Assembly: GCA_037043015.1 (NCBI GenBank)
Contig: CM073321.1
Location: 1,803,001-1,867,000 of the forward strand
From: Bryum argenteum
Lineage: Eukaryota > Streptophyta > Bryopsida > Bryales > Bryaceae
Direction of reading: 5' to 3'
DNA: 64,000 nucleotides
Shown here: positions 12,244-38,675 of the stretch, one piece after another
Layout: each line of letters begins with the position of its first letter
How positions within the stretch are numbered: the first letter of the stretch is position 1
Notes under the pieces: model-generated
What the model saw: only the letters and a program-made list of their open reading frames with translations
Told to the model about the DNA's origin: nothing
Database searches by the model: none
Made by a program: the position numbers and the translations under genes

Positions 12244-14306
12244 AGGAGTCAAGGACCAGCTTACTAATTATAGTAAGCTGGAGTCTCTAAGTTAGAGAAG
12301 AATTGAGCTTTCGAGCTTATTTATGTAGCTTGCTCTTTGGTTGTGTCGTTCTGTTTGCATTGACTTAGAGAGCTTAGTAGAAATTGGATGAGTTTATGTG
12401 GTTTATGTGCTTGCATTGATCTAACTTGTGGTTGAGTTGGTGTAGGATTAGGTGTGCTTGGGAGCAAGAAGACCATATTAATATTCTTAAGTAATCTGTG
12501 AAGGCATTGGCTACGTTATTGGTTTTATTAAAATCGTGTACTTTGCTTTCTTTGCTTTGCTTTCTTTTGTTTTGCCTTGTTTGTCTTGCCTTTAATCTTT
12601 GGTTGTGTGTGCAGCCAAGACCGGAGGAGCTTTTGTAAACACTGTTGTTCTTTTTGTTGTTTTTTTCGTGGGAAGTTGTAACTTAGCGAGCCGACTGATC
12701 CGGACACGAGGTGGGAGTGTTGGCCATTTGGCCAAAGCCCATCGGTGTTGTTGAGAACTGTTCATTGTTATTTTGTGGAGGGTTGTTTGAGTTGGCCTTG
12801 TGTTACCGTCCAAGTAATTGGACGTCAAGGGAAGTCTTTCCCTTATCTTTTGTAGTCAAGTGAGAAGGTTAAGGCCATATTACTATTAATAGTAATTTGT
12901 CCCTTTTTATTGTGACGCCCGGAGTGTGTTATAAACACATCGTGCCCTACCCTAGCAGAATGGAACTTCGGTTTTAGTCCACTCATAGGCGAAAGTGGAT
13001 TGTATCCGCCATTTGGGTGGGATTCACTTGTGTTTAGTTTGTGCGATCTCCTCGCAAAGGAAAGTGTTAGTTCACCATTGTTCGGTGAACTACACTTGTG
13101 TATAGTTGCTTTTATTTATATAGGTTTTTGTATACGGTGAGGTTGGGCTAATCGCCGGCGGGACCGTTTATGTTGTTTGAAATCGAGATCGTTGGCAGTG
13201 ATGCCCCAACGGTTTTGAGAGGTTGTGTTTGCAGGTTGAACTTATAAGTTGCCCTGAACCCGTCCATTGCGACTTTTGTGGTCCAACCGTGAATTGTACT
13301 TAAAAACCTTTGAAATTCTTTGTAAACCTCTCGTAGGTCCGGTAGCCAAATGGTAAATCGGGAAGTGTGCCGGATAAAGCCGCTTATTCAAGGACTGGCA
13401 CGGGGTCCTTCGGTAGTTACCACTCCCAAGACGTGCGCCATCTCAGTAAGGGGCGGAGGACACTTTGTTTACTTGTGGGTAAAAAGTTGTTTTAATTCTT
13501 AAAATTCACCAAGTTTAATTGAATGATTTTGTATGCTGCCCGGAACTTTCCTTGGTCGCTTTAGGGTCCTTAGAGGTCCTGAACGGTGATTTTAACATTG
13601 AAATCTAGCTTAGTAATTTTCCGTGAGTTTGATTTGCTAATTATCCCGGTTAGACTTTAAAGCAAATGAATCTAGGGGCCTGGGAAAGTGTTACTCCTAG
13701 TAAGCGAAACCTAACTTTGACAGGTGGTTAAAGTTGCATTTTTTATGACCACCATCTCTCGCCCATGGGGGAAATGGGAGTGAGGATTTGAGGTGTGAGG
13801 GTTATCTCGGACGTGGTACCGGGGTGCACTACCCGGTATCAAGGACCACCTCCTCTCCTTGTGCTTACCGGGCTTGAAGGCACCGCGGGCGAAAGGTTGC
13901 GGCCATCCCACGCTTCGGCAGTTAGTGCGCGGTGACCAAGGGGGATTATCGGTGTTGGCCGGTAGGGGGCAAGGCTACCGATTCCCCACCTTCATGCACG
14001 GGCACTCGGGTTCTTAATTGTGGCGCTTTTCTCTACGTGGTGGATAAACGAGTCTTCTTTTATGTTGGTGGACCCACTTACTCGAGGAGGCTAGAGGTCT
14101 CAATCTAGGTGATACGATGGCCCTTGTGTTGGCCAATTGCTTGAGGATTTTGTCCTACTTGTTCCTACCCATTTGCAATCATTTTGTCGTGCAAGTTACG
14201 CACTTGAGTTTGGTTGACGGTTTTTTAGGATTGTTGGTGCAAAGAGAGTAGACGATTGAACCTCCACTAGGGATGATCCCAATGATGACAAAGGAGGTGA
14301 CCCCCG
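12171..14306 (+). other. Retrotransposon leader, no gene seen
   Basis: A 2.1 kb untranslated leader lies between the primer site and gag. It holds a run of about 40 T at 12,203-12,242 and no convincing ORF. Confidence 0.6.
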
Positions 14307-15038
14307 ATGGTTACACTTAGATCGAAATCTTCTTATGAATTTCCGTCTATTTCTAAGAACACCTACAATCGGTTTAGACATTTAGAAAGGGAACTCTTAC
14401 CCCAAGAATTAGAGGGTGGCCCTGAAGGATTAGCGGTCGCGGTAGTACCGGGAGTCCCGACAGCCCCGCTAACCATGGACAGAGGGCTGCAAAACCCTGC
14501 GGATGCAATGATGGCCCCTAGGGGACTTCCGATAGTGATGCCCCCGGGTCTAGGACCGCGGAATATGATTGTACACCTCCCGAGGTTTTCCAGTATGGCC
14601 TACGAGGACCCCTCCAACCATGTTGAGAGATATATTGAGGCCCTCGTAATTAATGTCATACCTGAGGAAACCTATCGGTTAGTGGAGTTTTCCACCACGT
14701 TGGAGGGGGCGGCCTATGAGTGTTACCGCTCGCATGCTCCCGAGACGTTTGCGGATTGGCCCACTTTACAAATCGCCTTTTTAAGGCAATTCGGATTTAA
14801 CAAACAATCCACTATTCGGAGTGTTTTAACCGCCATACCTCAAACCGTGGACGAGGCCCAAACGGCGGCTCGTCGCGTGAAGAGGATTGAGAAGGAGAAC
14901 AACCAGATGTGGGCCCGAACGGTCGCCGCGGTCCCTTCTTTTATTCCTACACACTACACACCCCGTCAAGGAGACGGCTCGATTTTGGGGGAGTCATCTA
15001 TAGCTCATTTACTCCAAGGTCCTGGATATGTGCGCTAG
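14307..15038 (+). pseudogene. gypsy gag, capsid part
   Basis: A 243-residue ORF from MVTLRSKSSY contains the retrotransposon capsid domain at about residues 90-200: VHLPRFSSMAYEDPSNHVERYIEAL, split here as an aromatic-rich start, then VEFSTTLEGAAYECYR and FADWPTLQIAFLRQF, the usual spacing of plant gypsy capsids. It ends with a stop at 15,036; the nucleocapsid continues after a frame change. The ATG is the first good one after the leader. Confidence 0.8.
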
Positions 15039-15166
15039 ACACCCCTTGATTCGAGGCCACTAGTTTCTCAAATCCAATGGAACCCCCAACCGGAACCCGT
15101 TAGCGTGGGGCGGTTGACAGAATTGGAGGACGATTCAAAAGGGCTAATGACGATCTAAAAGAGGAT

Positions 15167-15628
15167 ATGATGAAAACAATTAAGTTTCTGGGGGATCAAT
15201 TGACCATGGCCATCAATGCGAAAAATGTGAATGTCACGCCACCACCAAATGAGATCGGGAATTATCCCTCGAACATATGGTGCATAAATTGCAAGCAATA
15301 TGGCCATAGTCCCACCCATTGCTTGGGAACACCTAACCAGATGGCCTATGTTCCACCGCATAACCGGCAAAACCCGCCTAACCCCAAGGGAGGTAACCAA
15401 TCCCAATCTAGGAGGACGGTCTGTCCCACATGTGGCCGGCACCACCCTCTTGGCCCGGGAAGGTGTTGGGTAGAAACAGGTGTGGTATGTGGGGGTTGCG
15501 GGGAAAATTACCCCACCAAGATGTGCCGGCGTAACCAACTAGGTACCGGAACGGGTGCGGGGGGTTCAAGTAACCTCAAGCTGCCCCAAACCTCGCAACA
15601 AAAGTACCACGTGCAAACATATCCTTGA
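15167..15628 (+). pseudogene. gypsy nucleocapsid with zinc-knuckle-like Cys clusters
   Basis: The fragment includes WCINCKQYGHSPTHC, a complete C-x2-C-x4-H-x4-C knuckle, then two further Cys clusters (CPTCGRHHPLGPGRC and CGGCGENYPTKMC) that look like variant knuckles. It would bind the element RNA. It stays in one frame with the protease ORF that follows, apart from stops. Confidence 0.75.
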
Positions 15629-15832
15629 CCGTGGTACCCCCAACCTAATACTAGTGTTGTATCGCAATCACCGACACAAGGCCCGGGACCAAGTACCCCT
15701 CAACCTCAATACTACATAAGGGTACCGCCGGTCCCGCCTAGTGCACCTCCTCAACGGAGTTACCCAATCCCGGTTTCATCTCAAGATGTCCGGAATGAGG
15801 GGATAGCATCCGGTAACTCTTAAACCCCGAGG

Positions 15833-16759
15833 GTGGGCCCATCAACCTCCCAACCTCCAGATCACCAAATTTTAAACTTGGTAATACATGAGGAAGAGGC
15901 ACCCGAGATGGTTAGCTGTAATAGAGGACCGGTAGAGCACGAGGTGGCGGTCATGACACGCCAACATCGGGCAACCAATCCTCCCTCGGAGTCAATCTCC
16001 ACGGATGAAAGTGTTTCGGAAGAGGCAGCGGATATCTCGGCCGTGAAAGAGTTCTTGGGGGACCAACTAAATGGAACTCCTCTAATAGAACCGCCGATTG
16101 ACCAACCCTCAATGGAGGGAGATCACCTAGACCCTATTGATGATGAGGAGGATAACCTCTACCGATTTGTGGACCCCACCGGTTTAGAAATCCGGGAACA
16201 CCTAGAGCCTATAGCTCGGGGAACCCGCGTGTTCAACCCGGCCGAAGATTATGATCTTTGGACGGATCTTTGTAGTCTCCGGGCGAACAATTCTGTGGCT
16301 CAACTTATTCGGGTAGCACCCTCTTTGAGGAAGGAGTTCAAGGAAGGGGCCACGGTGCCCCGGAGACCTCGAAGGGCGGTAATGACCGCTAGGATCTATG
16401 GAAGCCCCTTAGTTGATGACAACGGCCTCGAAATCGATGTCTCGATCTTGGATTGGATTCTTCCGGGGGCCCTTACTGACAATAGAAGAGGCATTAATAT
16501 CATGCTCCTCACCACGATGGTAAAACTTGGTCTTTCCATCAACGGTCCGTCTCCCTATATTGTCAAGGTAGCGAATCAGCGGCCCATCACCCCTTTAGGC
16601 GAGATTACCCAATGCCAAATGGAGGCGAGTGGTGAGGTTTACACGCTTACTTTTCACGTTTTGCGGCTTGAAGCTAACAAGGCCGCCTACCGCCTTCTTC
16701 TAGGGAGAGATTGGTTGACGCGGGCCAACGCCTCGGAGCGTTGGTCCATCAATCAATGA
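15833..16759 (+). pseudogene. gypsy aspartic protease region
   Basis: Residues 190-308 form a retropepsin-like domain: ALTDNRRGINIM stands where LVDGGSGVNIL is usual, followed by RPITPLGE and LLLGRDWLTRANA. The catalytic triplet is TDN rather than DGG or DSG, so the enzyme would be dead. Residues 1-190 are an acidic linker. The stop at 16,757 is followed in the same frame by a further 77 codons (16,796-17,029) of linker, after which coding similarity ends. Confidence 0.7.
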
Positions 16760-17050
16760 AGTGTCAAGTTTGGTCTGCCGGATAACCGGTCGTTTGTGAC
16801 AATGGGGTCCTGGGTCCCCGTGCCTACAGAGACACTTGCAAAGGGGCCAAAGGTACCGGCGGTCACCGATGGCGAGGGGGTTAGTCTAGTGCAACCTACG
16901 CTTGTGTCGGGAAAACCCCCCATTGATCTAGGCGTGATCAAAAATCTCGGCCCAGGACTTTATGATTGGGAGGATGTTGGTGAGTTCACGGCATGGGGGG
17001 AACCCACCGGTGTGAGCGTTGAGCGGTGAGCGGTGACCGGTGAGCGGTAA

Positions 17051-18147
17051 AGTTTGAGCAGTAAGAAAAAAAAAGTTAAAAGTTAATGGCCCTATTAGCA
17101 TGGAATGGGTGGTTCCGAAATTTGAAATGGTTATATTTCGGCATTAAAGTAGCTAAAACTGTGGATATAGGTTCTTTATCCATTTCTTTTCATCGTATTG
17201 GGGTCCTACAATATTTCATGAATAATCCACATTTATAAGTTTGAATACAAGTTAATTAATTATGGCTAACATCATCATGTGTAATCCATACAATTCAAAT
17301 CATCTACTGGCCTCGTTCACTCACAAATACAAAACTCAAAACAAAATTTAGAATGGCCCAATAGAGCATCAATAAATTCACTTTATCGATTTTAAAATTT
17401 CGAGTATAATTAGGGCTGACGTTATCAATTACCTATTACACTTGTCAGAATTATATGTAAAGGCTTCGGTTTATATGATCTGAAGTTTATAACTTCAAGT
17501 CGTCTTTCCATGTCTCCTTGTAAGGTGTACAGAAAGACATTCACGTGGCATTGTAGTGGTCCGGGTTCGATTCTCCTCGACCTCGTTTGAGCGTTGCATT
17601 GCGTCTTAAAGCAGCTATCTTGAGCTATGCAAATACTAGACCACAACCCCTACCAACATTGGCAAGATTCAATCACTCCCATGGAAAATAAAGAAACCTT
17701 CTGAAACTTTTAGTTTGCATTGAGTTTAAAACTTAAACATGTAGATGAATTAAATTAAGAAATCGTTAAACGTTCATGATTAAAAGGTAAACGTCATATA
17801 TAGATATAAAAACGTATAATAAAACCACATGTATGACCAATGCCGTAGGGCAACTACAGATATATGATCCTACGTACTCCAAACCAAACCAGGAAAATAA
17901 AAACACCTAGGATGCTGATGGTGAACCACCATTAAAGTGTTGGTCACACTGATCAGCCTCATCGTCTATAAACGTAAGCACTCTTGAGCTAAAGCATCGA
18001 CGTCTACTACTATCCGATAAGACGGGAGAAGAGGCAGCGACAAAATCTTGAGCTATCCGCTCCCTATAAGATGGTAGGGTGAAGGTTTGCGGAGGACTAC
18101 TGTAGAGACTTCAGTCGCCAATTAAACGTCAATCGGAACCTGCGATT
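17051..18147. other. AT-rich stretch, no gene seen
   Basis: I find no supported ORF, terminal repeat or RNA gene here. It separates the truncated gypsy from the ParB-like gene, and may be 3' flank of the latter. Confidence 0.5.
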
Positions 18148-18777
18148 CTAAAAGTACAAAAAAGTCAATACCAACAAATTATTAGCAAGTGAAGTTGACA
18201 ATAGTAGGAAGGGAAGTAAGAGAGAATTTTGCACAAAATGTAGGACGTTGCTTCTTCTGAAGCGGTTTAAAACTCTCACTGTCGTAGTCATAATCTGGAA
18301 CCGAATCACCGCTTTCTTCCTCAATAGCGGTACATCCACGTATGCCGATAAAAGTCCGTCAAATATCGATTCATCAGCTTCAACAGCAATGAGATGACGG
18401 TTCGATCGCGCGCAGGCAATTACGAAAGCACCTACATAACACCAACCTACATCAAAACCACAATCTTGAATAAGTTGAACGGGAATTGGTACTAGCAACA
18501 ACAAACATGTACTAGGGCTACAGTCAAAGACAATTCCCCGCTTGTCTGTAAGAGAATCAATAAAACACTGGATGAAGGAGGGATCTTTCTCTCGCAAGCG
18601 ACGCCATAGGGTACCATCCTCCTTCTTACGAATGGAGTCTTTGCTCGCGAAATTGAAAACATGGTCCTCCTTGTTAGAAAGAATGGGCACAACTGCGTAC
18701 TCTTTTGCAACCTGCCTGATGGTGAATCTGGTGGCGAAGGACTTCCAACCAAAGACCTTAATGTGGAAGTTGAGACT
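18148..18777 (-). other. Methyltransferase motif I/X exons of copy i
   Basis: One exon (18,777-18,513) ends in REKDPSFIQCFIDSLTDKRG then IVFDCSP. After an 81 bp GT-AG intron (18,512-18,432) the frame continues with AFVIACARSNRHLIAVEADE. Put together this follows the end of beta-class N6/N4 methyltransferases: a helix that packs before motif I, a strand ending in Asp (VFD), a small-residue loop, then a strand ending in an acidic residue (IAVEADE). The glycines of the usual GxG loop are missing. The fit across the intron in both sequence and frame is the strongest evidence that the gene was spliced. Confidence 0.6.
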
Positions 18778-18862
18778 CTGCAAAATTCAGTTCACGAGAG
18801 AAATCTCAAAAACATTGTAAATAATCATGAATGGTGATTTGAATGCAGAATGACGGCCATAC

Positions 18863-19166
18863 CGTTTTCAAGTGAGGCCATTGGCATGGAATTATATCCC
18901 CACCAATCTTGCACCATTCGGAAATCAAAAGCCTTTGACTCGGCATCTAGAGCTTTCTCGACTCGACGGTCCTTGGGATGCATTACATGTATCGCATCCT
19001 CGTTTGTCAAGTTGTAGAAAGTAATAAAGAACACACTCTCGAAGTAGCTTTTCTCTCGCTTGTTCCATGAAGGGATTTCGATGAGCAACACGTCCGGCAC
19101 GAGTAAGTGCTCGGGAACGTCTGCGTAGATGAGATCAATACCAGAATGCGGGTGTTTTGTGCCCAT
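18863..19166 (-). other. Methyltransferase motif IV exon of copy i
   Basis: The exon reads GIDLIYADVPEHLL, the position and setting of the catalytic DPPY/DPPW motif IV of amino-methyltransferases (DLIYADPPW in many), here DVPE. It continues with FFITFYNLTNEDAIHV, KDRRVEKALDAESK and RMVQDWWGYNSMPM. Motif IV precedes motif I, the order of the beta class. The changed catalytic residues argue against activity of this copy. A block further upstream (19.45-19.3 kb) ends in a donor site and would precede it. Confidence 0.55.
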
Positions 19167-21355
19167 TTCCTTTCATAGGTACTTCCTATCCTTGCCAATC
19201 TTTGGAAATCACAATAAGTTAGATGTGTTGCAAGCAATGTGTTCCAATTAAAATTTCAGAAAGAAAATAATGTAATAAAACATTAAAGATATAATACCTT
19301 TTTGATGTGGTTGATGATGTCCATGACTTCTGTGTCCCTGTCTTTAGTTTCATGAGCTGCCTTTTGAACAGAATCTCCAATATCCCCTTTTTCCAAGTAC
19401 ATTGGAAGAGGAATAGTAATCTCAGAAGACAAGCAGTCTTCAACATGCTTTGGTTCAAGAAAAGGGAGTGAAGCGATCTTCTTTCCGGAGTTGAGGTCGA
19501 AGGCGGTGGTGATGAATTATTTGTAACACCACCCGTCGAGACCTGAGTCGATATTGCAGCGAGGCTTCGACGATTCCCAACAGCCCCATGAGAATGTTGA
19601 GTCAAATTTGGCTCACAACCACCTACATCAGAAATAGCGATAAGATGACAACACTGAGATTTGTCTTGTAGATTTGCAGAGCCGTTGGCAGCAGTATTCT
19701 TGCATTTCTTGCCCTTCGCTTGAGGTTGCGAAGGGCTACGATTGGTGGTTTAGCAGGTACTGCAAATACTGGCGGAGGGGGGGATCCATCAGGCAAGATC
19801 GAGAAGTTGTTGTTGTCGTCCTCAATCATTGCTTCGGTAGCAACGGCCGTGGAAGGTCCTTGAAGCAGATGCTTCTCGTCCCGATGGACAAAGTTGTCGT
19901 CACACTCGAGAAACCAACCTCCTGTCATCAATTGAGCTTAGTAAAACGGTGCTGCTGGTGAGCCGAGAAACATTTTGTCTGGATCTTCCTCGACTACCAC
20001 GTCTTTGAAATCGGAGGAAATCTGCGGAGCGGCAAGGCCTCTCTTGGGCACGAGCTTATGCTTGATGTACCTGCACGTGGAAATAAACTTTTGAACGCTT
20101 GAAACCAAATGAAACTTAAGAATGCATGAGAAGAAGGTTATGAAATGGGAACACACCTGAAAACCAATCGAATTCATGTCTCTACGCCACCCGCAATTTT
20201 CTCCAGTTTAGAGCCTTTAAGGAACTTCGGACTCGCATTGGGCCTGAGGTAGTTCTCGAAGGCCTTATCCCAGAGTATAAGCCTCCATTTCTCTACGTAG
20301 TCTAAAGGCTTGAGAATGTTGTCATTCCAAGTAATGAAGAAATTTTTTTGTAATTTTATAGTGTTATGGTTTTCTTCAAGTTTTTCTTCCAAGTATTTGG
20401 CCACCTGCAATTGGATAACAAACGTTAGAACACAATTTTGAAATACAAATGTGGATTGAATAACTTAAGGACGTTGATGTGGTTACCTGTGCCTATAGAG
20501 AGGCGCGGTTAAGTTAGACACTTAGAGGTTTATTCTGGACGGGCACAGGGAAGTAGTTAGCCTCGCGAACCTCTAACAAAGAAGTCCACCATCATAACCA
20601 TTGCGTCTTAAAATCCTTGTGGTAATTTGTCGTTGCTATCAAGTACAAGCGGTCTAGCGTGAATTCTGAAATCAAGTTTTTGCTGTAGTGCGAGTATATC
20701 TGCAAAGGCGATGAACCATGAAGCATGTGAGTAAAAAAAGATAATTAGATTTTTGGATTTCAAATAAACTACAATGGCATACCTCTTTGACTCATTTGCC
20801 CCCGACGTCTTTGTTCGCAACTGCCAACATCTTATCGAATTCTTTCGAGCGAATTTTTCTTATATCTAATTTTCCGGCAGTGTCCACGGCAGTCCAGACT
20901 CCCGATGCAGTGCGCTTGTCAATGGGGGTCTCGGCGTTGTATTCTGCTTCTGCCTCGTTTGATGTCTTAGCAATTTTTCTCTACAACAAATATATACAAT
21001 AAATTTGAGCAAAATATTAATCAATTGAAATACGATAAGAGAAAGGTACGGAAGAATCACAAATTTGCCGCGTATAGGAACTTCACGAACACGTCTATCG
21101 CGAGTGGGTACCATTTATCTTCTTCTTCTCCTGCACTCTTTCGCAAGTCTTGTAATCCTCTTTGCTGATTAGGTCTTTAAAATCTGTGAGTTTCAATTTT
21201 CCGAATTTCCGCATGCATTGGAGCTGGGAGCAAAAGTTATCTTCGACATGCACATTTTCTGTAGACCTGTTCACAACATTGTTCACAACATTTAGTGAGA
21301 CAAACATTGTATGTAGTGAAAGTGATTAAATAAAATATATAAAACTTTGAGAAGC

Positions 21356-21706
21356 TCACCAGTTAATATTGGCCATTGCAAATAGGAGAAGATTCATTTC
21401 TTGTCGACCGTCAAGAATAATGCAATCTACAGAAATGTACCATGGCCTTTTATCAGGATGGTACCGCTCAATGTGCCTCCGCCATGCCGTCACTCGATGA
21501 TTTCCTTCATATACGTAGAAGTATTTATCGCTGAACTGATGGAGGTCCGTCAAGATCTCCTCAAACTCGTCATTAACCGCTTTCCAATGAGGGTTTTCCA
21601 AAAAATCGTCAGTAGGTTTTACATGACACAGCCCCCCCTTGGTCGAGTAGAGGGAAACGTACAGCACACGATCACCCTCCCGGTACGCCATGTTAAACTC
21701 TTTCAT
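21356..21706 (-). other. ParB/sulfiredoxin-like exon of copy i
   Basis: The block reads FSDKYFYVYEGNHRVTAW, then PWYISVDCIILD and LLLFAMANIN. ParB-family N-terminal domains have a strand followed by a DG(H/N)HR..A box; VYEGNHRVTAW fits it. A parallel copy at 34,366-34,592 keeps the same spacing (FSNKMFDVWDGN, AWHLEVDCILLE). In phages such domains precede methyltransferases and may bind or nick DNA; the role here is inferred only. Confidence 0.55.
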
Positions 21707-22514
21707 GAGTTTTTGGACGTCAAGGTGAATGATCGGTCAGACCTTCGGATGAGTTTTTAATCGACACAAAAGAATGTTGAAGCGCGATTTGTTTACCAGT
21801 TTGTTCCGAAGCCGATTGATGACATAGATATGCTCGCCTTTGTGCAATTGTCTCATCTCTTCTCCAATCAATCCGGCGTCCTTGCCCTTAAGATGGTCCG
21901 GCATTTTGAAGCCTTCCACGTCATCTGAATCTAGCTGAGGAGCCCATCACCACATTTGACAATAGTATCTTTGTTTTGTGAGCGCTCTTGAGTACGCACC
22001 AGAGACAAAAGACGCTAAATGAGCAATGGCTCAAATACCCCAGAGTTATTGTCATCAGTGGGAGTTTCTTGAGTGTCATCAACTGGAAGTGTCATCTCAT
22101 TGTCGGGGGAGAGGAGAATTGGTGCAGCCGGCGATGGCGCTTCACGAGTGGCCTTTTCATTGAATTCAAAATCGTCTGAAACTCGCATTTGTTAACATCC
22201 GCTTTGCATAAGAGACAAACCGGAAAAGCAGGAGTACTCAATGACATCAAAATGAATGCCCTTACAGCACGCCGATTGTCTACTACATTAGGTATAGGAG
22301 CGCAGAAAGCTAAGATGTAACTTTCACAATCGAAATCATCTTCAACGTTTCGCTTCTGCTCCATGTATATAATCTGCAAATACCTATAGCAAGTCAATCT
22401 ACACATTTCGAAAGAAGGTGAGCAGCACGTTGATTCCAAATCTCAGACTAATCATCAAAGAAAAATAGATGAAAATTTTAAAACAAGCAAGAAAGCACGA
22501 AAACAACAAATCAG

Positions 22515-22835
22515 AAGCCCCATCTGGCTTGCAGATCCCTTCCCGGCAGCGGCCATCACCGAGGGCTCATAGAAAATCTAGACAATTGTCGGGCAGACTT
22601 TCTGATTTGCCGCCGCAAGATTGAGGGGAGAAAATTCAAAACTTCGCAACAAGCTGTAAAAACAAGAATACCTGCAATTCAAATGCCCTCTCTCGCTTGC
22701 AGATTCCTTCACAGCAGAGGCCATCACCGAGGATTCATCAAAAATCTAGACAATTGTCGGGTAGGCTTGATGATTCGCCGCCGCTGGCCTGAAGGGAGGA
22801 AATTCAAATCATCGCAACAAACTGTAAAAACCTCT
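22515..22835 (+). repeat. 168 bp tandem duplication
   Basis: Two copies with anchors GCAGATCCCTTCCCGGCAG (22,531) and GCAGATTCCTTCACAGCAG (22,699) share the following CCATCACCGAGG, ATCTAGACAATTGTCGGG and AACTGTAAAAAC. It lies in what should be an intron of copy i. Confidence 0.75.
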
Positions 22836-23211
22836 ATTATCATCCCCGTACAGGCAAACATTCTCACTAGACATCCTGAACTGCCTTCTACGTCCTTCTT
22901 CCTCCTCTTCTTCAGCTTCGTTTGTCCCGACACTCCGGGACACTGTCGAGGTTGAGTGTTCGCATCTTAATAGTCCGCTTAAATGGCGGTAGCACATCAT
23001 CGTCTATCAAAATATTGTAACCGTCAGGCTCCCGATCTTTGCCGCTAGAGCTTGTCCCATCCCGCTTCCGCAAAGCACTACGCTTCAGTGCTTTAGCATT
23101 ATTGAACTTCATACCACCCTTTCGCTTCTTTTTTTTCTGACCGATTTCCTTTCTTCTCTCAGTACTACTAGCGGTTTCGTCCATGCTGCTTGCATGGGGA
23201 TAACTTATCAC

Positions 23212-23731
23212 ACGATCTACCTTACAAGTCTAAGAGTTCTCACTGCAAATGAAGAGGTCGAACTACTGGATTTAACTCCATTATATTAGTTTCCATATGC
23301 GGCTAACAAACCCTAATCAGCCAGTGCTAAATCCCTAACATTCCGATCTGACCGTGTCTGACATTCCAAAGTAATCTAATTTTTGTACGCATCTATTATC
23401 CAACTATATCTCTGACAATAACTGCCGCTGTCACTTTACCTTCTACACCTACTTATTTTATCAAGGGATCTGATATTTTAAACCCAACTACTTGATGCGA
23501 TTATGTTAGTCCACCGAATTTAAGTATTATAAGTAATGTGTTTACAGATTATCATGCTCACGATTAAAAATATCGAGTATCTGTACATTTTATTATAAGA
23601 AATTATGTCTCATAAGATCTCAATACGTATGCAAACAACCTACACCATTGTTCCCTATTTAAACACTAGGATTTACACCTGAGTCTTTCTCCGCGCACTT
23701 GTTAGTGTTGTCTTCCTCGCTTGCGTCTATC
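23212..23731 (+). promoter_or_regulatory. Divergent intergenic region with TATA-like box
   Basis: About 520 bp separates two divergent genes. CTATTTAAACAC at 23,652-23,663 lies about 75 bp before the ATG at 23,732, a reasonable place for a plant TATA box of the Mutator-like gene. No other feature is seen. Confidence 0.4.
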
Positions 23732-26700
23732 ATGGCATCCTCCGCTCCCTTGCCTCCCGCTACAGACGTCATCGCCATTAGGTCTGAAGACTTAAGTCCT
23801 CCCATCTGCGTTCCTCCAGGGGTGGATGGAGTAGCAGAAGTGACTCTGTCTTGGCTAGCAGTTCGTTTCGGGTTTAATGAGTCCTCTCTCTGGTTAGAGA
23901 ATCATGTCTTAGATCCAAACACTAATCTTGTCGAGTACTCTATCTTTGTCAAACCAGTCGCCCTACAGAGTAACTGTAAAATGTATCAACTACGCCCCGG
24001 ACAGTATCGACTGTTCGGTTTGACAGAGTCCGTCATGAACGCCTCCACCGTCGTCCTTACTCCTCGTAGTTCTTCTACCATCTCCATAGTTGTTCTAGTT
24101 CTTGCTTGTGCCAAGGTCAAACCCAAACTCGAAGTCCGTATCGATATTTCTGATTCATCCGACCATGAAAGAAAGTCGTCAATCTAGTCATGTCGACTAC
24201 CATCGAATCTACCTCCCCCCTCGTCTGATTCTGAACACAGTCTCAGAACCACCCCCTCTTCTCTCTTGCGTCCAAAGTCGTCAAACCTAAAAACATTCTT
24301 TCCTCGCTCCGTAGACTAGGTAGCATGTCTCGCAACAAAACTATACTAAAAAAAATGATTTCTATTCTATTCGTACTCACAACGTCTCTTTCTTGCCTCC
24401 CACTTTCAATGGTGATTTCCTATATATTCTCCCTCCTGTTCTACCAACTACTGCTGTTTAAGTGGCCAAGTCTATGGAGGGGATGGACAAAAGATACGAC
24501 GGTCATGTGTGGACCAGGACAATGACAACTAACATCAGTAACAACCTCGGTTAGTCATTCCGCTACTCTAATTGTGTAGGTCATCTTAAATGCCATAATA
24601 ACAACTGCGGCTTCTTGCTACGACCTGACCGCAAAGCACAAGTGAATGAGCTGGAGTTCGAGGACTCTACCAAGGACCACTTCTCGGTCGGCCACGTGCC
24701 TCCTCCTTCTTCAGCACTGGTCTGTATGATCTGCAAAGAACCTCCCGTATGTGTTGCTCTATGCTTTTCTAAAATAGTTTACGTATTTGGAGAGGAGATT
24801 CAAGAGCGGGCGTGTGTGCATATCGGTACCCACAAACATCCTGTCAAGGTCAGAGACTACAGATGTGCACGTAAAATAATTGATGAGTTAATAGAGGAGC
24901 ACATAGAACGTAACCCTCAAGCTACCACGTCCAAAATAGTCACATGGAGGCAAGCAAGGACTTACTCGGAAACTTCTCCATGAAGAAGGTGACCCTGTAA
25001 CCTCCAAGCTCACTCTCCAGGAGCTAGAACCTATCTTTAGTCAGTGTAAGGAGCTGAACTCTCCAAGCGTCAGGAATCGTATTACCACTTTTAAGCACTT
25101 GCGCACATACGGTGTTCTTGATGGGATCACTAAGCTTCGAGGCCTCAGCAACTGGGCTTACATCCAACGTAACCAGTTCCCGTGCCAAAGAGATGAAAGT
25201 GACAAAGTGTTCATTTTCAAGATGTCTGAGGTCGGCCACGAAAGTGGTATTGACCCAGTTCCCCGTATGCAGCCCCAAGGCGACCTGTCCCATGCGTGGA
25301 TGATGATCGACCACGTCAAGCGTGTCAAGAACTGAACCACCATGGCGTGCTACGTTTATGACTCAAAAATCTGCCGCATTTTAACTATTGCATGCTGTGA
25401 TTTCCAGTCTGAAGACGAAAGAGCTCAAATTGTCTTCTAGAAGAACCTCAACCACGTCATGGACAGAAACGGAGTGGAAGCGCCGCAGTTTCAAGGGTTC
25501 ATGGCCGACAGTGTGCAAGCCAAATGGAACGTTGTGCGGATCATTTACCGCTCCGGAAATCCCAAAGTGCCCATGGAAGGCCGTGAGCAAGCTTGCTACT
25601 TCCATTGGACACAATCCCTAGAGAAACACACCAAACAATATATCGTGCACGAGCTGCATAATCAACATCGACATCTTTGTAAGCAATACAAAGATGCACG
25701 CACCATGGCTGAGGCGGAGACAAGATACTGGGCGATTCGAGCGTGGTGGGCGTCGGCGCAGGCCACCTCTGAAGTTGGATTAGGTCACCTCGAACACTGG
25801 CTTGCATTGTAGCACTTCTGATAGAGGCAGTGGGGTGGCTTCATGGAACTGGTGAGTCCGCAGTCACTGTAACAATTATGTACACGTTCTTTTATATATT
25901 ACAAATCCGTAAAAAATATTTACTCTTTTAATATAAAATATTCTAATTTTTACATCGTTTACGATAACAACTATTTAATTTATTTACAAAAAAAAACTAT
26001 TTTTAGAACAAAGTTGCAGCGCCGCAAGTTTAAACCGCTCTAGATATCGTGATCAACTTCTTTTGTTACTAAGTCAAATGTCTTTGCCCCTTGCAGGAAA
26101 ATAAATATTCTGCAGATGAGCTGGCGAGATGTCTTCATGTAACCTTGCGGAATCTATCCATAACAAATGGCTGCAAACGTCCGGCAACAAGGGTGTGGAC
26201 TTGTACGTTGCACTTGTTGATGACTATGTTCATGCTTTCCTCCAAGTAGTGGGTTACGACGACTTCAGCGGAGGTAGCAAGGGTCATAGTGGACCAACAT
26301 CCGAAGAACTATTACTTTGTGTTGCCCATAAAGCTCAACGAACCGCCAATCCATCTGGCCTCCGAGAGGCAGTTTCTGACTATCCAGGAGCAGAAAAAAT
26401 ATGTACTCGCCACGCCCACTTTGAGGGGAGCGAGGTGTTCGGATCCAAGAAACGTAAGGCTGATGTTCCAATTAAAGCTAATGATGAAACGCACAGACCT
26501 GAGACCGTGAGCTACTCACGTCCTCAAAATAGGAGAAGGGTTACCAGAGCTTGTGCTGAAAATCTGAGTACTATACATGAAGAGGATGAAGTTGAGGAGC
26601 CACCGACATTACCATCCACTTTTGCTAAACCTAGTATTCAACATGTGACCGCTGTTCATGAGACTAAGGTAGTCGAGAGGCTGTGACAAATTGCCCGTTT

Positions 26701-27414
26701 GATCGAGAATTTTGCCAAGGCTTGTTGGGGTATCAGGCAAAGGACTAAAAATAGATTTGACTCACGAAATATTCAGAAGGGGCAGGCGACCGCAGCTCCT
26801 ACTTATTCCGGAGTATGGCAGCACCCTCAAGAAGGTCCAAAAAAAACTGATCAGTTCTTTTTTTGTGCGGATGATATGCAGAAGTGTGTTATGGGTCATC
26901 GTCGCAAGTGGATTGAGCCATTCTCTCTAAGCCAGGAAAGACCACCTACTCCTTCAATTTGGCCTGTTAAGATAAAGACTAACGTTACACGTGAAGAAAT
27001 GGAGGCATTAGAGAATGCGGGATCTCGACTACCATAAAAACAACAGCTTCTTATGAACCGCACTTTCAATAATGCCGGCCCACCAAGAGACTTGTCGCAT
27101 ATTCCAGTCCCGGAGAAGCCGGACGTGTTCCCTAGGCTAAGAAGATCGAAGAAAATGAAACGCATTCCAGCTATGACTTCAAAGCACATGAAGAATATTG
27201 AGTCTGCCACCTCAATGCAGGCCACAATTCTGAAGGTGACCATGATCCCGCAGCCTGGTTTTGGGTGAATCGCAGACTTAGAGTCGGATTCGGATGCAAT
27301 TTATAGACTTTCAATTAGTAAATTCCCAGATTGCTTATACCCAGCATTCAAGAAAACAATTTAGGACGGAGGGATTCATATCGACCATGCAAGCACCTAT
27401 ACTGTAGCTCAAGT
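23732..27414 (+). pseudogene. Mutator-like transposase with SWIM zinc finger, broken
   Basis: Starting at MASSAPLPPATDVIAIRSED, a long protein can be followed through frame changes: a DNA-binding Cys-rich region (YSNCVGHLKCHNNNCGF, split near 24,560-24,620; then VCMICKEPPVCVALC), a catalytic core with FMADSVQAKWNVVRIIY and CYFHWTQSLEKH (the D...A and C.FH positions of Mutator-like DDE enzymes), NLAESIHNKWLQ, and finally a SWIM-like CKHLY at 27,388. A GT-AG intron fits 25,852-26,096, rejoining GGFMEL with ENKYSADELA. Related long SWIM proteins occur in non-seed land plants as far as I recall. Multiple stops and frameshifts make it a pseudogene; its end is cut by the LTR at 27,415. Confidence 0.7.
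25852..26096 (+). other. Intron in the Mutator-like transposase gene
   Basis: The donor GGTGAGTCC and acceptor CCCTTGCAGG bound a 245 bp AT-rich gap. The protein reads smoothly across it. Confidence 0.7.
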
Positions 27415-29571
27415 CCGAAACGGTTTACGCTGCGAGAATTGCTTCCTATAAGCTTTAGTTTAGATTATTCATATTCAAATTCCCTAATTGGGACATTTAA
27501 GCAAATTCTTCCGGTTCCCCGGAAATTTATGATCTTGGGTGGGGTTTGGCCTAATTGTCCCGACGTTGGTTTAGTTTATTCTAATTTGGTTAGATTGATT
27601 AATGTCAATATAATTTGGCATGTTTTTGGGTATTTTTTTAGGCTTTCACCATTATTCATATTTTAGCACATTTGTGGTGTGTGTATAACCTCGTTTTTTA
27701 TATAGACTTATCTTTCAAACATTTTGACTTTCTAAATTGCTTATCTTCTTTGCTATTTCTCTCCATTCAATTTATCATTTATTTATCTTTCTTGCAATTC
27801 TTTTTCGCGATGTATTTATTTTTCTTTGCATTACTAGGAACCAACATCGGACAGAGGGGTCCCACGAGGCCGATACCCGCAATGACGGGGGAAGGAGAAG
27901 CCCCGAAGGAAAGGGTCGTAGGAGGAGAGCCAAGGCCAGAATTCAGGGAGAGAGGTTTTTCTCCGTGTGACTGTTTTTTGACTAGGCAGGGAGAGCGCCG
28001 GAGCAGATCAGGAACGACGATCGGTATGACGCGAGCTAGAGGTGACATACGGCAGCATTTGGCAGCAAGCGCTCCGGCGGTTTGGCATCAACGAGGACAG
28101 CGATCGGAGGGCGACGAAAAAACACCAACAGTGAAGGCGGCCGGCAGAACCAGCAGCCTAGGCAGAGGTCGGAGGTCGCGACGAGATCCAGTACCGCAAG
28201 ACAACGACAACGGCGATATCCAGCTCCGCCAGCAACGGCAGTGACAGCGAAACCAGCAGGAGCAGGGTCGGGAAGGCGATCGGGAAAGCAACGCCAGCTC
28301 GACTAGCCACCTCGGCAGTTGGGCGGATCCAGCAGCTCCTATAGCAGTACCAATACGAGCAAGACGGCGATCGTGAAGGATCGGAGGAGCCGGCAGCGAC
28401 GAGACGGGAAGGGGAACCGGTGGAGTTTTTGAAGGCTAGCACCGGCGTTCACAGCACCGGCAGTCAAGGCCGACATTGGCTCCACGGCAGCTCAACACCG
28501 AAGGCAGTGACAAGGTCGGCCCGACGCAACAGCCACACGACAGTAACTAAGCGCGAGGACGACCAGCATCGCCGGCCGGTGGGGGTCGGAATTGGAGTGA
28601 CAACAGCAGCAAGGGTCCGGAGCGGAAGGCCGCAGCGACCGGCACTGCTTCCAGCGTCAACGGCACCCTGTCCCCTCCCGTGACAATACGGAGGGTGCAC
28701 AGGGTGACATAAGAGAGGGAGCTCCTCTCTTCTTCCTTTTGCTCTACTTATTTGCTGTTGTTTTTTGCTGATTAGCTTAGATTGAATGCTGTAGTAACTG
28801 TGTACCCTCATGTTAAAAATGGCAACATCCATTGCCTTAAAAAATGTTTGCTTTGATCAATTTTAGCATTGCTTTGCACTTGTGATTGGTGGTTGTTTCC
28901 TTATTTGAATGTTTGTATGGTTCTTGCTTGAATTGCTGTTTGAAGTGGTCGTGTGTTAGTGTTCACCGTGTGCAAGGGCAGTGCCGCCCATTTTTAGGGC
29001 TGAATTGGTGAAACTTAGGTTAAAAGTTGGGAAATTGGGATCAAGCGTGGAAGCGCTGTCCAAATCACTCTAAAAGTTCCTTATTTAAGTTGGAATGGTT
29101 GAATGCCTTAATAGATTGTGCACTAGAGTATGTGGGTTCATTGGTTTGCATTTGTGGAAGAAAGAGAGTTTTATAGTTGACTTGTCATCATTTGCACCCC
29201 ACGTGTGTGTGCTGACCCCCTTAGACTTGAAGATTTTGAGAATTTTGAAGATTTTGTGGTGGTTTTTTGCTCATTTGGCCTCCCTAATTAAGCCCTACGC
29301 CTTTAGTGGTCACTTGGAAGCTTTTTGAGCCTCCTAGGGTGGATTTTGGAACTGGGGTTAATGCTGAAATTTCTTGCTTGCATGAAGGTCGGAGTGCTTG
29401 CCTGAAGATTAGAGATCTTGCATGTTTACGACTTTTACTCAAACTTGTCTTGCATTGCATGTTTGTTTTTTAAAGTGGTGTCTATTGCTTGGAAGGCTAA
29501 TTAGCGTTGTACTCCATCCCCACGACACAACTTGTGGCTTAAAAACCGGGTCACCGGAATTTAGGCTGACA
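27415..29571 (+). repeat. Long LTR, plus-strand copy (2.16 kb)
   Basis: Bases 27,415-29,400 match the reverse complement of 41,783-43,779; 29,403-29,571 match 11,979-12,147. It ends in GGCTGACA followed by CTGCG, the target duplication also found at 43,780-43,784. Its first bases (TGTGAACCG) are lost or diverged here. A GC-rich core at about 27,900-28,700 sits in AT-rich flanks. Open frames in it are on both strands and not conserved, so I do not call genes. By the inversion model this is a hybrid of two LTR copies. Confidence 0.85.
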
Positions 29572-31943
29572 CTGCGTGCCTTGTCTTTTCACATAAAACA
29601 AAGGGGTAGAAGCATACTAGGGTGGATCACTTTTGGACAAGTACTTGTACTCAAGAAGTACCAGAAGTCAACGCCCAATTTTGATGGGTACTTTAGGTAC
29701 TAGAAATCTTAATTTGCGAATAAGCAAGGTTTAAAAGAAGCATTGCGTGTTAAAAATCATATTGAATTAAAGAGAATTAAGGGGACTACTAGACTTGGTT
29801 GTGGACCAATGATAATAATCACAATAATGACAACTTTCCCCATCGAAAGTTTTTATTATTGTACAAAGAGTACATGCTAAGTACTATATCTTGATTCCTA
29901 GAAGTAGCCTTTGGTGCCAAAAACAATTAGTTGGTACAAATGTCCCACGTGGATATTGTATGAATATTACGGAATGCACAAAAATCCACCTAAAAATTAT
30001 AATTTTTGACTAAATTACATCATGTCAAAATTTTTGCCCTTTGACCGTGAAAAGTTGTAAGGAAAGGATGATTTTTTGGAAAGTAATGATACAACATATG
30101 TTACCTTAGAAAGTGCTCTCTCTAACCCTATAATTATTTTTGTACTTTGCAACTCAAATCTTACCAAATTTGAGTACTTTGTAACATTTTTGACTGTTGT
30201 TACGTACTTTTCTGGAAAGCAAGAGTGCAAATTACAATATGTTCCTAATATTTTTGAAAATAATTGTCAAGTCATTTGCACACTCCATCACTCTTTTGAC
30301 CTAAATCCAAAAAAAAAATTAGTACTTCAAGATGTAGAGGGGTCCAAGAAAGGCCATCGAACAAGCATATTTATACGCTTTAGAGGGCGTAACGTACTTT
30401 TTGATTCACCCTAGTGTGCTTCCACCCAAATGCAAATGATGCAGTGATGAAGCTTCCAATTGCTGTCACTGGCATGATTGCGCACAGGCATAGCGATGTC
30501 TGCTATGCTCATTATGGGCTTGATATTTATTCAAGTGATTGCAGTCACATTGTTGGATCAATATTAAAGCTTTTACGAGTATTGAAGGAGTTTTGATTTC
30601 GTATTCAAAATCATTATTCGCAAATTCAGGGTCCTAGCCTTTATTTGAAGCTGTATTATCTAGAAAAGTAGGGTGTTTAAACACTCTTCTTCCAGAAAGT
30701 GAAGTTTCTCGGGTGGCAGAGCCTCTACCTCCGGTCCGCATGTGCAACTGGACAACGCAGCTTCTGACAACAAGAATAGATTTATGTTTTGCTTTTGGTC
30801 TCTTTTGGTACACATGGGTGTGTTCTGTAAGGTATATGTCAATTTCTTGTTAGTGGGACATACTCACGAAGATATTGGCCCTCTCCTTGGACGTTCCAAC
30901 ATGAATCTAAAAGTGAATGACTTTCTCACAATTCCTCATTTGATGAAGTCATTTATGGACGCAGAGTCTTTGTCGGTCATTCCTCATTTGATAGAAGAAA
31001 TTCCTGACATCAAAGGTTATATCAAAGACTAAATTGGTTCTAGAGATGAAATTCTAGTTGGTCATTTGGATGGTCAGCAATTCAAGTTTTACAAGCATGA
31101 CAATGGATGCCCTGTGATGCAGTATTAGGTGTTATGCTCGGGCAATGAGTCGTTATCTTCTACTAATAGAGGTATAAAATTGTGGAAGGAGGACCAAAAA
31201 ACAAAAAACCATTGTTACCTACAGATGGAACGAAACCTTTGGCGACCATTCCCATAAAGAACCGTGATGACATTGTAAAAGGCATTCGAGGGTTTATTAA
31301 GATGTAGGAGACTTCAAGTGCGGAGGACATATGTGGAGAATTTTGTCGGCAACATGAATGTGTTATTCGCTATTGGCAAGCTGTGAACCTTGCGTTGGTT
31401 GAGCCTATAGAAGTGTCTTCATTTTTGAAGAATGAGTGTTAGCCTTTAACTTGAGTACCTGCGACACGAGAATTCTTAAATACTAGCGAATTGCGAGAAG
31501 AATATGGGTGTGATCCGCATTTTATCGGGCGCTTGTGTAATAGACCAAGGGAGTCGTTTTGTGTTGGTCGAGACGTTTTTTCTAGATATTTTGTAGCTTT
31601 ACGTCTTGCAGATGGAGATGCTCGTCCTTTCTGGATTGCTAGGGCTTTGAGTGATTTTGATGTTGATCACAACAATCCAGGCTGTATGCAAATGCAATAC
31701 TTTCAACCGACGTCAAAAAAATTGTGTTGTTCAAGAAACACATGCTCGTTGGGATACCAAGAAGACATTCAAATGGAAAGTTGAAGACACTCACATTCCG
31801 GGATGGCTTCATGCTGATGCTATTTTTACATCATGGAAATCAAGTGCAAAACTTGGCTCTCGGCGTCCGATTATTTCATTATCGGAGCATCAAATCGACA
31901 TCATCAAACAGAGTATTTCGCGGTTTGATGATGTAGAGGAGTA
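29572..31943 (+). pseudogene. DUF7869-type transposase-like gene, C-terminal half
   Basis: After the target duplication CTGCG the coding sequence resumes (CLVFSHKTK), is interrupted by a MITE (29,604-30,427), and continues with VMKLPIAVTGMIAHRHSD and GLDIYSSD. The most typical segment is QLDNAASDNKNRFMFCFWSL followed by FLLVGHTHEDIGPLLGRS (about 30,745-30,905); QLDN..DNKNR and VGHTHEDID are hallmarks of a widespread family that I recall as DUF7869, with transposase-like spacing of acidic residues. Later blocks (31,491-31,942) include FVALRLADGDARPFWIARALSD and a C-terminal tail. Stops and frame changes are present. The N-terminal half is at 45,084-43,785 on the other strand. Confidence 0.7.
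29604..30427 (+). mobile_element. MITE-like TIR element inserted in the DUF7869-type gene (824 bp)
   Basis: The ends are inverted repeats, GGGTAGAAGCATACTAGGG on the left and the complement of GGGTGGAAGCACACTAGGG on the right, continuing as TGRATCA for at least 25 bp. The inside is non-coding and rich in GTACTT. The host protein reads on at both sides, which shows the insertion. No clear target duplication (AAG against AAA). Confidence 0.75.
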
Positions 31944-33913
31944 GCCTGACATTCCTAGTTTATCTTAGCATGCCAACTTGGTTTTAGCCGAGCTAAACGA
32001 CTTGAGTGCAATTTGAGCATTCAATTTATCCTGACTTGATCTTTTGTAAATTACATCATCTTAGAAATTCATGTAGAAGTCCTATCTCTTCTCTTTGGTA
32101 GCGGTTGATATTTGTAGTTAAGTATTGGTACAATTGTTGTGTTTTAAAGGCCTAACAATTCAAATGTTTGCAGTTTTTTGGCGTTTATTGTCAATTCCAA
32201 GATTAATTGGGTTTATCATTATATTGTGCTCTTATTGCAAATTGCTGTTGGAATGCTTTTTGCAATTGGTACTTACAACATCTTTTGTGTGCACTTTAGC
32301 TCTACAACACGCGTGTTTTGCTAGATTCACATGTTGGAATTTAGGTCGATTGAGTTTTTGAGAATTCGAATTTTCCCATTATAACGAAGTACGTGTTAGT
32401 GGGAATTGTTTACCCGGATCGCTTGATCTATAAAGAGAGAATGCTTCAGATTTACCCTCTCCAGAAATCGTTGCTACTACAATAATACCACATTTAGACC
32501 ATCCTTCTAACATCACAGCAATTACTACTACAAGTAAGACCATTCACCTCAATGTTGTTGTATCCTTGTACACAGGTTTGCGATCGTAGATTTGTAGATG
32601 TTTTAAGGCAAGGAACCTGTGAGTGCGTGGAGTTTCATGGCTGGAGCCGGCATAGGCAGAAAGATCTCATGCAAACATGAAGCGAGTTCTACAAGTTCAT
32701 TTGTTACCGGCTCGGCCTAAAGGAGTTTTGTGGCGTGGCAAGAGCAAGCATGTACCGGCACCTACAACAACATTTGGCGCGGCCTGGGTTGTCTGGGAGC
32801 GGCAAGCAAATGCATGTCCCGACCAGTCATGGCGCGTAGCGCGCTAACATCTACATCAACCTGCTACATTTGGCACGTGATACGTAGAGGCAGTCGAGTC
32901 CGGCGTGATGATTGCACACCCCGGCGCACTCGGCATGAGAAAGATCTCACCATCACCTCCTTTTTGCAAAATTGTGACCCACACGATAAGAGTCGTGATC
33001 GGCGCATCGTTCAGTGCCGACGTAAAATGCCCGAAACAATTCAAACAATCACTGGTACTCTGGCGCCACGCAATGGGAGTCTTGATCGGAGCGGTGGAGG
33101 CAAATGCCGACTTTGGGGTCACGCGGTGGCACTGAAAGTGTGCCGGGGCCATGCGGTGGAAGAAGTGAACAGCGCGGTGGAGGCAAATGCTGGCGCACAA
33201 TTCTGTGCCGGGAGTTGCTTGTTGGAATTGTTTCTAGCACACTTGAGGAACACGTGGTGGGTGTTGTGAGGCCAAGCGGTAGGAGTTGTGACCGTTGCGA
33301 TGGTTGCAAATGCTGACTTACGATTCACTGTCAGGGGTGACAAAGCCCGACCCATTACCAGGAAACTTTGAGGCCACACAGTGGACGTAGTGACAAGCAC
33401 GGTGGAGGCAAATGCCGACGCGGTGGAGGAAAATGCCGACACAATGGAGGAAAATTCTGGCTCCCAATTCAATGCTAGCGGTTGCATGCGGCAATAAAGG
33501 CGTATGCTAAAAACTTCTCCAATAGCCTAACTAGCTGGGAGTTGTGCGTGATAAAGGCGTATCCCGACACACAATTTGTACCAGCGTGGCATGCCCTAAA
33601 CTGCACCAACCGCTGTTGCTGGCAATGTGTGCGATAGGGCCACACCGTGAGAGCCGTCACCTGTGCGGTGTCATGGTAGCTTGTGCGTCCAAAATCTGGA
33701 ATGGCAATCGCATCACGATTTGATCGTGCAAGCAATTCATACCCAGATAGCAACACTATAGGAGTCGCAATCAGCGTGGCATGCCAAAGTCATTCTTCAT
33801 TTGCCCTTGTTGGTGATCCAATACGTTTTCATCATAAATATTCGCATAACTCTCACGGGTGAGATTTTTTCATTGCAAAGCATGTACTAATTTACTACTC
33901 AATTGTTTTGTAG
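31944..33913 (+). other. Region without a supported gene
   Basis: 31.95-32.7 kb is AT-rich flank of the DUF7869-type gene. 32.7-33.8 kb is GC-richer and holds degenerate repeats (separate entry). Open frames on both strands here follow the repeat and are not convincing. Confidence 0.5.
33075..33475 (+). repeat. Degenerate tandem repeats with GGTGGAGGCAAATGC core
   Basis: GCGGTGGAGGCAAATGCCGAC or a variant recurs at least five times at uneven spacing (33,090; 33,178; 33,401; 33,419; 33,434 approximately). It gives apparent ORFs on both strands. Function unknown. Confidence 0.55.
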
Positions 33914-36582: not shown

Positions 36583-36994
36583 CACGAATGCATCAGATTT
36601 AGTGCTCCATTCCACTTGTAGAAAACAACATTTTATCACGCGTTTTCACGCGTTATCAGTGACATATACCCACACTCTACCAAATTAGTGTAGTAATCAC
36701 ATCGAATTAAACGTGACGTAGCGTTAAACTGTTTAACGTAAATCCGTCAAAAATGACGCTGTGAAAACACTCCGCGTCAAATAAGATATTGATGAAATGC
36801 GGTTTAACATTCGTACGTCAAAAATAACGGTGTGGCATTAGATTAAACACCAGCGCCTTTGATGGGCGGTAACTTTTTGTACTCTTTTTTTACCAGAAGG
36901 TAGAAAAGTTCTGGCTAAAAGTAGAAAGGCTCCACGTCAGCGCGTTTTTTTAACGTGGTCGGCCTTTCTTTTAATGTGTTCCACATTTAATTGT

Positions 36995-37395
36995 GTTAAA
37001 AGAAATGTGAGAACATTGATGACGTAAAATATGTGCGCTGACGTGGATTTCATTGTGTCTTCCTTTGCTGACGTGGAGCCTTAGGATTTGACCAGTCAAA
37101 TCAAATTTGAGAGACTAGGGGGGGCTGTCAACATTGATGCACGCGTTTCTTGTGACGAGAAAAGCGTTTAAATGCATTAAAAAAAAACGTGAGAACATTG
37201 ATGACGTAATATATGTGCGATGACGTGGAATGCCGTGTGGCTTGATTTGCTAATGCGGAGCTTAGGATTTAACCAGTCAAACCAAATTTGAGAGACTAGG
37301 AGGGGCTGTTAACGTTGAGGCTCGCGTTTCTTGTAACGCAAAGTGCGTTCAAATGCGTTAATAGAAACGTGAGAATATTTATGACATTGAAGACT
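36995..37395 (+). repeat. About 181 bp subterminal tandem repeats of CACTA-1
   Basis: The anchor GTGAGAACATTGATGACGTAA occurs at 37,007 and 37,189 (20 of these bases shared) and in a diverged form at 37,369, each followed by TGTGCG.TGACGTGG, AACCAGTCAAA or GACCAGTCAAA, and TTTGAGAGACTAGG. Subterminal repeats bind the element's own proteins in studied CACTA elements. Confidence 0.75.
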
Positions 37396-37841
37396 GTCAA
37401 CTTTCACGCAAGCGGATGCGTCAAACACTAAACGCGTTTATAGTAACATCTGGGGCGTTAACATGCGTTACAAGAAACATGTTAACGTTCATGAACAAAC
37501 GTAGGGCTAGAATTCATGTTCATCCTGTAGAATGTCTAATCTCCTGTTGATGTGTCGCTACCAGAGGATTCGCCGAGTACCCAATCGTCATCATCATCAC
37601 CTTCCTCTGTTGCTACTGGCTCTCTTTCCTGCTCTTCCACGAATGATCCGTTCGCAGTGAAGCCTCAATGTGAGGGCTCTCTTGTGCGCGTCTCCGTGTT
37701 AGTGGTTGATGGTGAAGGCAGGAGCGTTGATTGTACTTCTGCATCGTCATGTTCTTCAGCAAAGGCACGGCCCCCACGGCTGCCTCGAACATCTGCCCTG
37801 CAAACCACTTTCTACGGCCCCTGGTCGTTCACAAAAAACAC

Positions 37842-38300: not shown

Positions 38301-38675
38301 TCTCTCAGGAATGTCTGATGTATTTCATCACCTACGCCCACGTCGTGCATGATGACTTTGGCGGCGTTCTGTGCTCCTAGAATTCTGCTCCACGACCTGT
38401 AACCTAGTGTGTGCAATTATCAATGGTAGAGTGTGCAAGTAGTACTGTAGTAGTGCAAATCTCGTACATATCTATTAATCGTGTTTTACATGACGTTATA
38501 TCGCGATTCAATTGACATTCCACTGCATTTTTTATGACGTTACGTGACATTTTTCATGACGCTAAATAACATGATATTTCGTTTTTTATCACATTACACC
38601 ACGTTTTAGATGACGATACTTTTCTTTAGACACATTAATCCACGTTTAGGAAAGTTAACCTATAATCACAGAGAG

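Follow-up and report, generated by a model that had tools for sequence, protein, structure and literature searches.

Here we report that the gene at 18148–21706 in a 64,000-nucleotide stretch of the Bryum argenteum genome (the window; C1:1803001-1867000 of a 259-Mb genome in 25 contigs, where C1 is contig CM073321.1) is very probably a decayed copy of an accessory gene in a large two-gene DNA transposon, encoding a protein of about 1190 amino acids that combines a ParB fold with a methyltransferase-like domain of beta motif order. A first-pass annotation had read this region as a plant gene with ParB-like and DNA methyltransferase-like parts. The residues it quoted are all present on the minus strand (VYEGNHRVTAW in 21356–21736, DLIYADVPEHL in 18825–19172, VFDCSP and AFVIACARSNRHLIAVEADE in 18148–18786); the locus itself reads as the second gene of a DNA transposon and not as a host gene. 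Our comparisons cover this one genome together with phage enzymes. Twenty genomic regions were fetched, two of which overlap, leaving 19 for comparison with the window, and the genome-wide list of ParB exon matches consists of the scored rows of a longer candidate list.

At least 151 matches to the ParB-like exon were counted across the 259 Mb, where 150 of 1038 first-look candidates were scored; this number excludes chance as the source of the quoted residues. Among the matches listed, 32 copies of this exon, including that of the window, share 78–100% identity (family A), and the remaining ones lie at 60–65% (family B). The gene model was built on a family B copy (L018), in which ten exons, separated by GT-AG introns with consistent phases, encode 1187 amino acids without a stop; one acceptor is mutated (GG for AG), and its position was set from other copies. 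Tblastn recovered the same ten exons, whole or in part and in unchanged order, from 19 other loci among those fetched; several of these, such as L024, L016, L019 and L015, lack exons or have frameshifts or stops in them. This shared exon set and order, together with the open frame of L018, identify the quoted pieces as exons of a single gene, split by introns as the first-pass annotation had proposed. Two loci, L026 and L027, join a family-B-like ParB exon to family-A-like methyltransferase exons, and these chimeric copies suggest recombination between the two families.

The exons of the window copy were mapped by tblastn with the L018 model. On the minus strand the gene extends from 21904 or beyond to about 17913. 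Exon a (21359–21904) encodes the ParB/sulfiredoxin-fold domain with its GNHR box and is followed by exons b (21122–21265), c (20801–20980), d (20487–20699) and e (20156–20392). Exon f (19295–20072) encodes mainly an acidic low-complexity linker. The methyltransferase part begins with exon g (18873–19199), which carries the motif IV region with DVPE in place of DPPY, and continues in exon h (18507–18768), comprising the target-recognition/motif X region and the start of motif I. A GT-AG intron interrupts motif I, as had been claimed, but in the family model it measures 75 bp (18506–18432, GTTTGT...ATGTAG) instead of 81 bp; the remainder of motif I lies in exon i (18328–18431), and exon j (17913–18128) encodes the C-terminal tail. 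At least eight in-frame stops (one each in exons a, e, g and j, one in the first part of exon f and three in exon d) make the window copy a pseudogene. Upstream on the same strand, a basic, K-rich open reading frame (ORF; 22912–23229), read by eye and with a counterpart at L019:247-681, probably represents one of this gene's early exons.

Members of the ParB/sulfiredoxin superfamily carry a GxxR box between a strand and a helix. The domain encoded by exon a has this fold, and GNHR is kept in 18 of the 19 rows of our alignment (A1) that reach the box, with GNHG in L015. The ParB-like region noticed in the raw sequence is therefore supported. The ParB model also matches a DNA methylase of Mycobacterium phage Vincenzo. 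Canonical ParB partition proteins possess a central helix-turn-helix domain, bind parS and have CTPase activity; no helix-turn-helix domain was identified in the ParB–methyltransferase protein.

For the methyltransferase-like part, Pfam scans of ten single exons or ORFs of the window copy returned only two matches, both at E = 0.13. The profile search against Pfam N6_N4_Mtase proposed in the first-pass annotation found the family: in the spliced L018 protein, the METHYLTRANSFERASE domain aligns to the end of the model (E = 0.098, below the curated cut-off), and 7 of the 32 rows of alignment A2, which holds exon pieces of six subfamilies of our own grouping and one read-through protein, also match it (best E = 4.2e-4). 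A tblastn search of 50,697 phage records with an E limit of 10 matched 123 of them, led by a site-specific DNA methyltransferase from Lactobacillus phage JNU_P5, whose alignment (E = 9e-3) takes in 95% of the query. Of the 15 phage matches listed, ten carry a methyltransferase or methylase annotation and the other five are labelled hypothetical proteins. Scored against the plant profile, the JNU_P5 protein reaches 26.5 bits, and the top PDB matches of the A2 profile are the N6 methyltransferase DpnA (E = 0.064 and 0.068). A joint alignment places phage DLPF over plant [D/E]-x-P-[E/D] and phage DNTMGSGST over DWSASTGAS, DWKAGTGAT and similar segments, so that motif IV precedes the target-recognition domain and motif I, as in the beta order. 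Profile, phage and PDB matches thus agree with the earlier reading of an N6/N4-like domain in which motif IV comes before motif I.

These results also bear on the idea that the likeness is fortuitous and the locus an ordinary repeat unrelated to ParB or methyltransferases. Such a repeat would fit the poor first AlphaFold2 run (predicted local distance difference test score of 38) and the sparse single-exon Pfam matches of the window copy. It is at odds with the ParB fold results and with the N6_N4_Mtase, phage methyltransferase and DpnA profile matches, and we give it almost no credence.

In beta-class N6/N4 methyltransferases the catalytic motif IV reads (D/N/S)PP(Y/F/W) and the S-adenosylmethionine (SAM)-binding motif I DxFxGxG. 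The altered residues of the window copy (DVPE, no GxG) had been pointed out in the first-pass annotation, which also asked for copies with an intact DPPY. We examined 28 readable copies, a sample picked from ranked lists and a small part of the family, and found no such copy among them. The change in motif IV is common to all 28: the motif reads [D/E]-x-P-[E/D] in 27 and DISE in one, an aromatic fourth residue occurs in none, and (D/N/S)PP(Y/F/W) is therefore absent from the sample. In a first set of 19 loci with exon g, 18 were readable (DAPE in 6, DVPE in 11, DLPE in 1; L023 is frameshifted), and in a second set all ten were (DAPE in 2, DIPE in 3, DISE in 1, EYPD in 2, DYPD in 2). In the four EYPD and DYPD copies, which belong to subfamilies F and G, Tyr occupies the second position of motif IV. 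In most rows the Asp and the final Gly of motif I are retained, with GxG altered in the main families (DWSASTG); some subfamilies read DWSASTG, DWSPSTG, DCTAATG or DWFASTG, and others are nearer to the canonical form (DWKAGTG, DFRAGTG).

Selection was estimated with our own Nei-Gojobori script on ten pairs of copies. Across exons g–i, synonymous divergence (dS) was saturated in four pairs; in the other six the ratio of nonsynonymous to synonymous substitution rates (omega) was 0.10, 0.09, 0.48 (with a dS of only 0.037), 0.17, 0.07 and 0.06. Five of the ten pairs were resolvable for the ParB exons, with omega between 0.07 and 0.18, and the C-terminal exon j is under weaker constraint (omega 0.12–0.78). 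All values include decay since insertion and therefore overstate omega. The methyltransferase-like domain is under purifying selection, which means that the altered motif IV is not a sign of decay.

An alternative is that the protein is an active N6-adenine or N4-cytosine DNA methyltransferase marking its own transposon, in which D-x-P-E is tolerated at motif IV. Strong purifying selection, the N6/N4 profile match and motif order, the kept first acid of motif IV with Pro in 27 of 28 copies, and the retained motif I residues favour this view, and modification of the own element has been suggested for algal relatives (excerpts of PMC12477816). Against it stand the missing aromatic at motif IV position 4 in 28 of 28 copies, with the Tyr of the F and G subfamilies at position 2 instead, and the altered GxG of the main families. 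With an acid in place of the aromatic throughout the sample, we think a non-catalytic or altered role more probable than ordinary N6/N4 methylation, against which the acid argues without excluding it. We regard an active methyltransferase as unlikely, although still worth weighing.

The assignment to a transposon is based on the limits of the repeated unit. Similarity between copies extends far beyond the gene and ends at a common point (blastn). Joining L030 and L019, which are neighbouring stretches of C5, yields a complete copy of about 13.7 kb, whose left end starts with GGACGTTGCTACCGTGTGAGCGTTGAGCGG and whose right end reads ...CCGCTCAACGCTCACACCGGTGGTTTCCCC; arrays of the 7-mer TGAGCGG lie just inside both ends, and the terminal inverted repeats are imperfect. 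A genome-wide search tolerating at most two mismatches gave 339 occurrences of the left end and 253 of the right; the reversed-pattern controls had none. Ten left/right end pairs were matched by eye from the places listed, and their flanks were then read. A target-site duplication of about 10 bp was seen in nine pairs (six exact, one of them 11 bp; three with one mismatch in 10) and none in the tenth. The element thus has the inverted termini and fixed-length duplications of a terminal-inverted-repeat DNA transposon, and the earlier suggestion that the gene was spread by transposons holds, as it is an internal gene of this multicopy element.

In the window, blastn of the joined element against this and other copies delimits a truncated copy at 16997–27403. 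Its right end lies at 16997, where the terminus GGGGAACCCACCGGTGTGAGCGTTGAGCGG is followed by 7-bp TGAGCGG-type tandem repeats (16997–17048). From the roughly 10-bp duplications of other copies, the target site is expected at 16987–16996 (CACGGCATGG); a second copy of it was not found in the window, nor were the left ~600 bp of the element (blastn). Homology stops at 27403, beside a stretch of 16 kb bounded by 2-kb inverted arms (27415–43770), which is probably a later, recent insertion interrupting the element. On the other side, Gag/protease-type retroelement ORFs were read by eye at 14301–16996 (+), and the element seems to have inserted into them.

The partner gene lies on the opposite strand. 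A decayed transposase-like gene (23663–27403, +) runs divergently from the ParB–methyltransferase gene and ends in a SWIM-like CxC...CKH pattern, read by eye. A better-preserved relative at L030:3963-7803 (−) comprises a 721-amino-acid open frame (L030:5638-7803) and two further ORFs; none of the three had a Pfam match at E ≤ 10, PF10551 (MULE transposase) included. Mutator-like elements (MULEs) produce target-site duplications of 9–11 bp and encode a transposase with a DDE core. The observed length of about 10 bp falls within this range, and the element may be called Mutator-like by duplication length only.

The two genes are regularly paired. At least 26 of the 62 genomic matches to the transposase-like ORF have a listed ParB exon within 20 kb (median 7.9 kb), on the opposite strand in all 26 cases; random placement gave a mean of 1.7 pairs and a maximum of 7 in 1000 trials. 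The count of 26 is a lower bound, as partners were drawn from the 150 listed ParB exons and the other 36 ORFs lack a listed one. With 27 extra hand-picked exon rows, 34 of the 62 ORFs have a neighbour, 33 on the opposite strand and one on the same strand.

This pairing, together with the 7-bp arrays at both termini, would also suit a structural role in transposition itself, in which the protein binds the arrays and pairs the ends and is not an anti-silencing factor. The existence of related methyltransferase exon subfamilies, whose carrier is not established, speaks against such a role, and we consider it improbable, though a serious alternative. Far less plausible is a horizontally acquired host gene caught by chance, with no role for the element. 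MULE-type elements are known to capture genes (Pack-MULEs, named in excerpts of PMC12477816), but chance capture conflicts with the open exon frames in many copies, the several divergent subfamilies, the selection between copies and the conserved pairing, and the same architecture is described in an unrelated algal transposon (same excerpts).

Searches with divergent exons revealed additional ParB–methyltransferase subfamilies in the genome. One is represented in the window by a second, decayed gene (33947–36353, +), located between the inverted arms; ParB and middle exons were found there, and no methyltransferase exon. In a copy of a further subfamily (L033:1139-3635), the C-terminal exon lies no more than ~100 bp downstream of the exon f match, and methyltransferase exons are absent between the two. 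The arms that bound the 16-kb stretch (27415–29400 and 41783–43770) are ~97% identical overall and lie 12.4 kb apart. They also enclose a CACTA/EnSpm transposase (38676–41417, −; Transposase_21, PF02992, E = 8.7e-25; DUF4218), a neighbour of the second-subfamily gene that is not linked to ParB-type genes genome-wide. A DUF7869 protein (30703–31032, +; E = 4e-24) has very abundant relatives (1247 first-look candidates), with most of the 150 listed matches on C1.

Proteins of this kind are already known. As described in excerpts of PMC12477816, a 21.5-kb Sola-1 transposon of the brown alga Ectocarpus (Sola1-1_Ec32) carries, opposite its transposase, a gene for a 1104-amino-acid protein with ParB-like and N4C/N6A methyltransferase domains. 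The same excerpts report accessory genes of the same protein class in green and red algal transposons (citing Iyer et al. 2011 and Petroll et al. 2025) and propose that the algal proteins bind the sequence of their own transposon and modify it epigenetically. Compared by these descriptions only, the Bryum protein resembles the Ectocarpus one in joining both domains in ~1100 amino acids and in being encoded opposite a transposase-like gene of a giant DNA transposon, and differs in its carrier, a ~13.7-kb element of a plant with ~10-bp duplications. Phage beta-class methyltransferases and ParB–methylase proteins (e.g. the JNU_P5 enzyme, L032) have the IV-then-I order and alignable motifs in common with it; they show DLPF and DNTMGSGST, whereas the plant protein has [D/E]-x-P-[E/D] and D[WCF]xx[SAG]TG, introns and a long acidic linker. 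In the open-licence PMC literature, covered mostly at title and abstract level, PMC12477816 was the one paper we found on ParB–methyltransferase genes in eukaryotic transposons; reports of such a gene from land plants, from Mutator-like elements or with an altered motif IV were not found. What is new is a further carrier, in a plant genome, and a conserved altered active site.

We tentatively propose a mechanism that, as a whole, falls somewhat short of even confidence. The protein would bind the element's own DNA, with the terminal 7-bp arrays as a candidate site; its ParB part may act as a nucleotide-gated clamp and its methyltransferase part as a DNA- and SAM-binding module. It might thereby aid escape from silencing or the assembly of element ends. 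VANC has, to our knowledge, no ParB or methyltransferase fold. The proposed analogy with VANC of the VANDAL Mutator elements of Arabidopsis (excerpts of PMC5735166 and PMC10398659) lies in a sequence-specific anti-silencing accessory protein and in the Mutator-like duplication length.

A large, diverse transposon-borne family that exchanged (D/N/S)PP(Y/F/W) for [D/E]-x-P-[E/D] under purifying selection could, as a possibility we hold with reserve, represent either a novel SAM-dependent DNA chemistry or a SAM-responsive, non-catalytic anti-silencing DNA clamp. The conserved swap from aromatic to acid yields a sharp, testable prediction about whether DNA methylation is an activity of these proteins at all. 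High copy number in a plant, on a carrier that is Mutator-like by its target-site duplication, would, if true, make the module common to different types of transposon. A supply of DNA-binding and DNA-modifying proteins encoded by the transposons themselves could account for the lasting activity of giant elements in methylated genomes.
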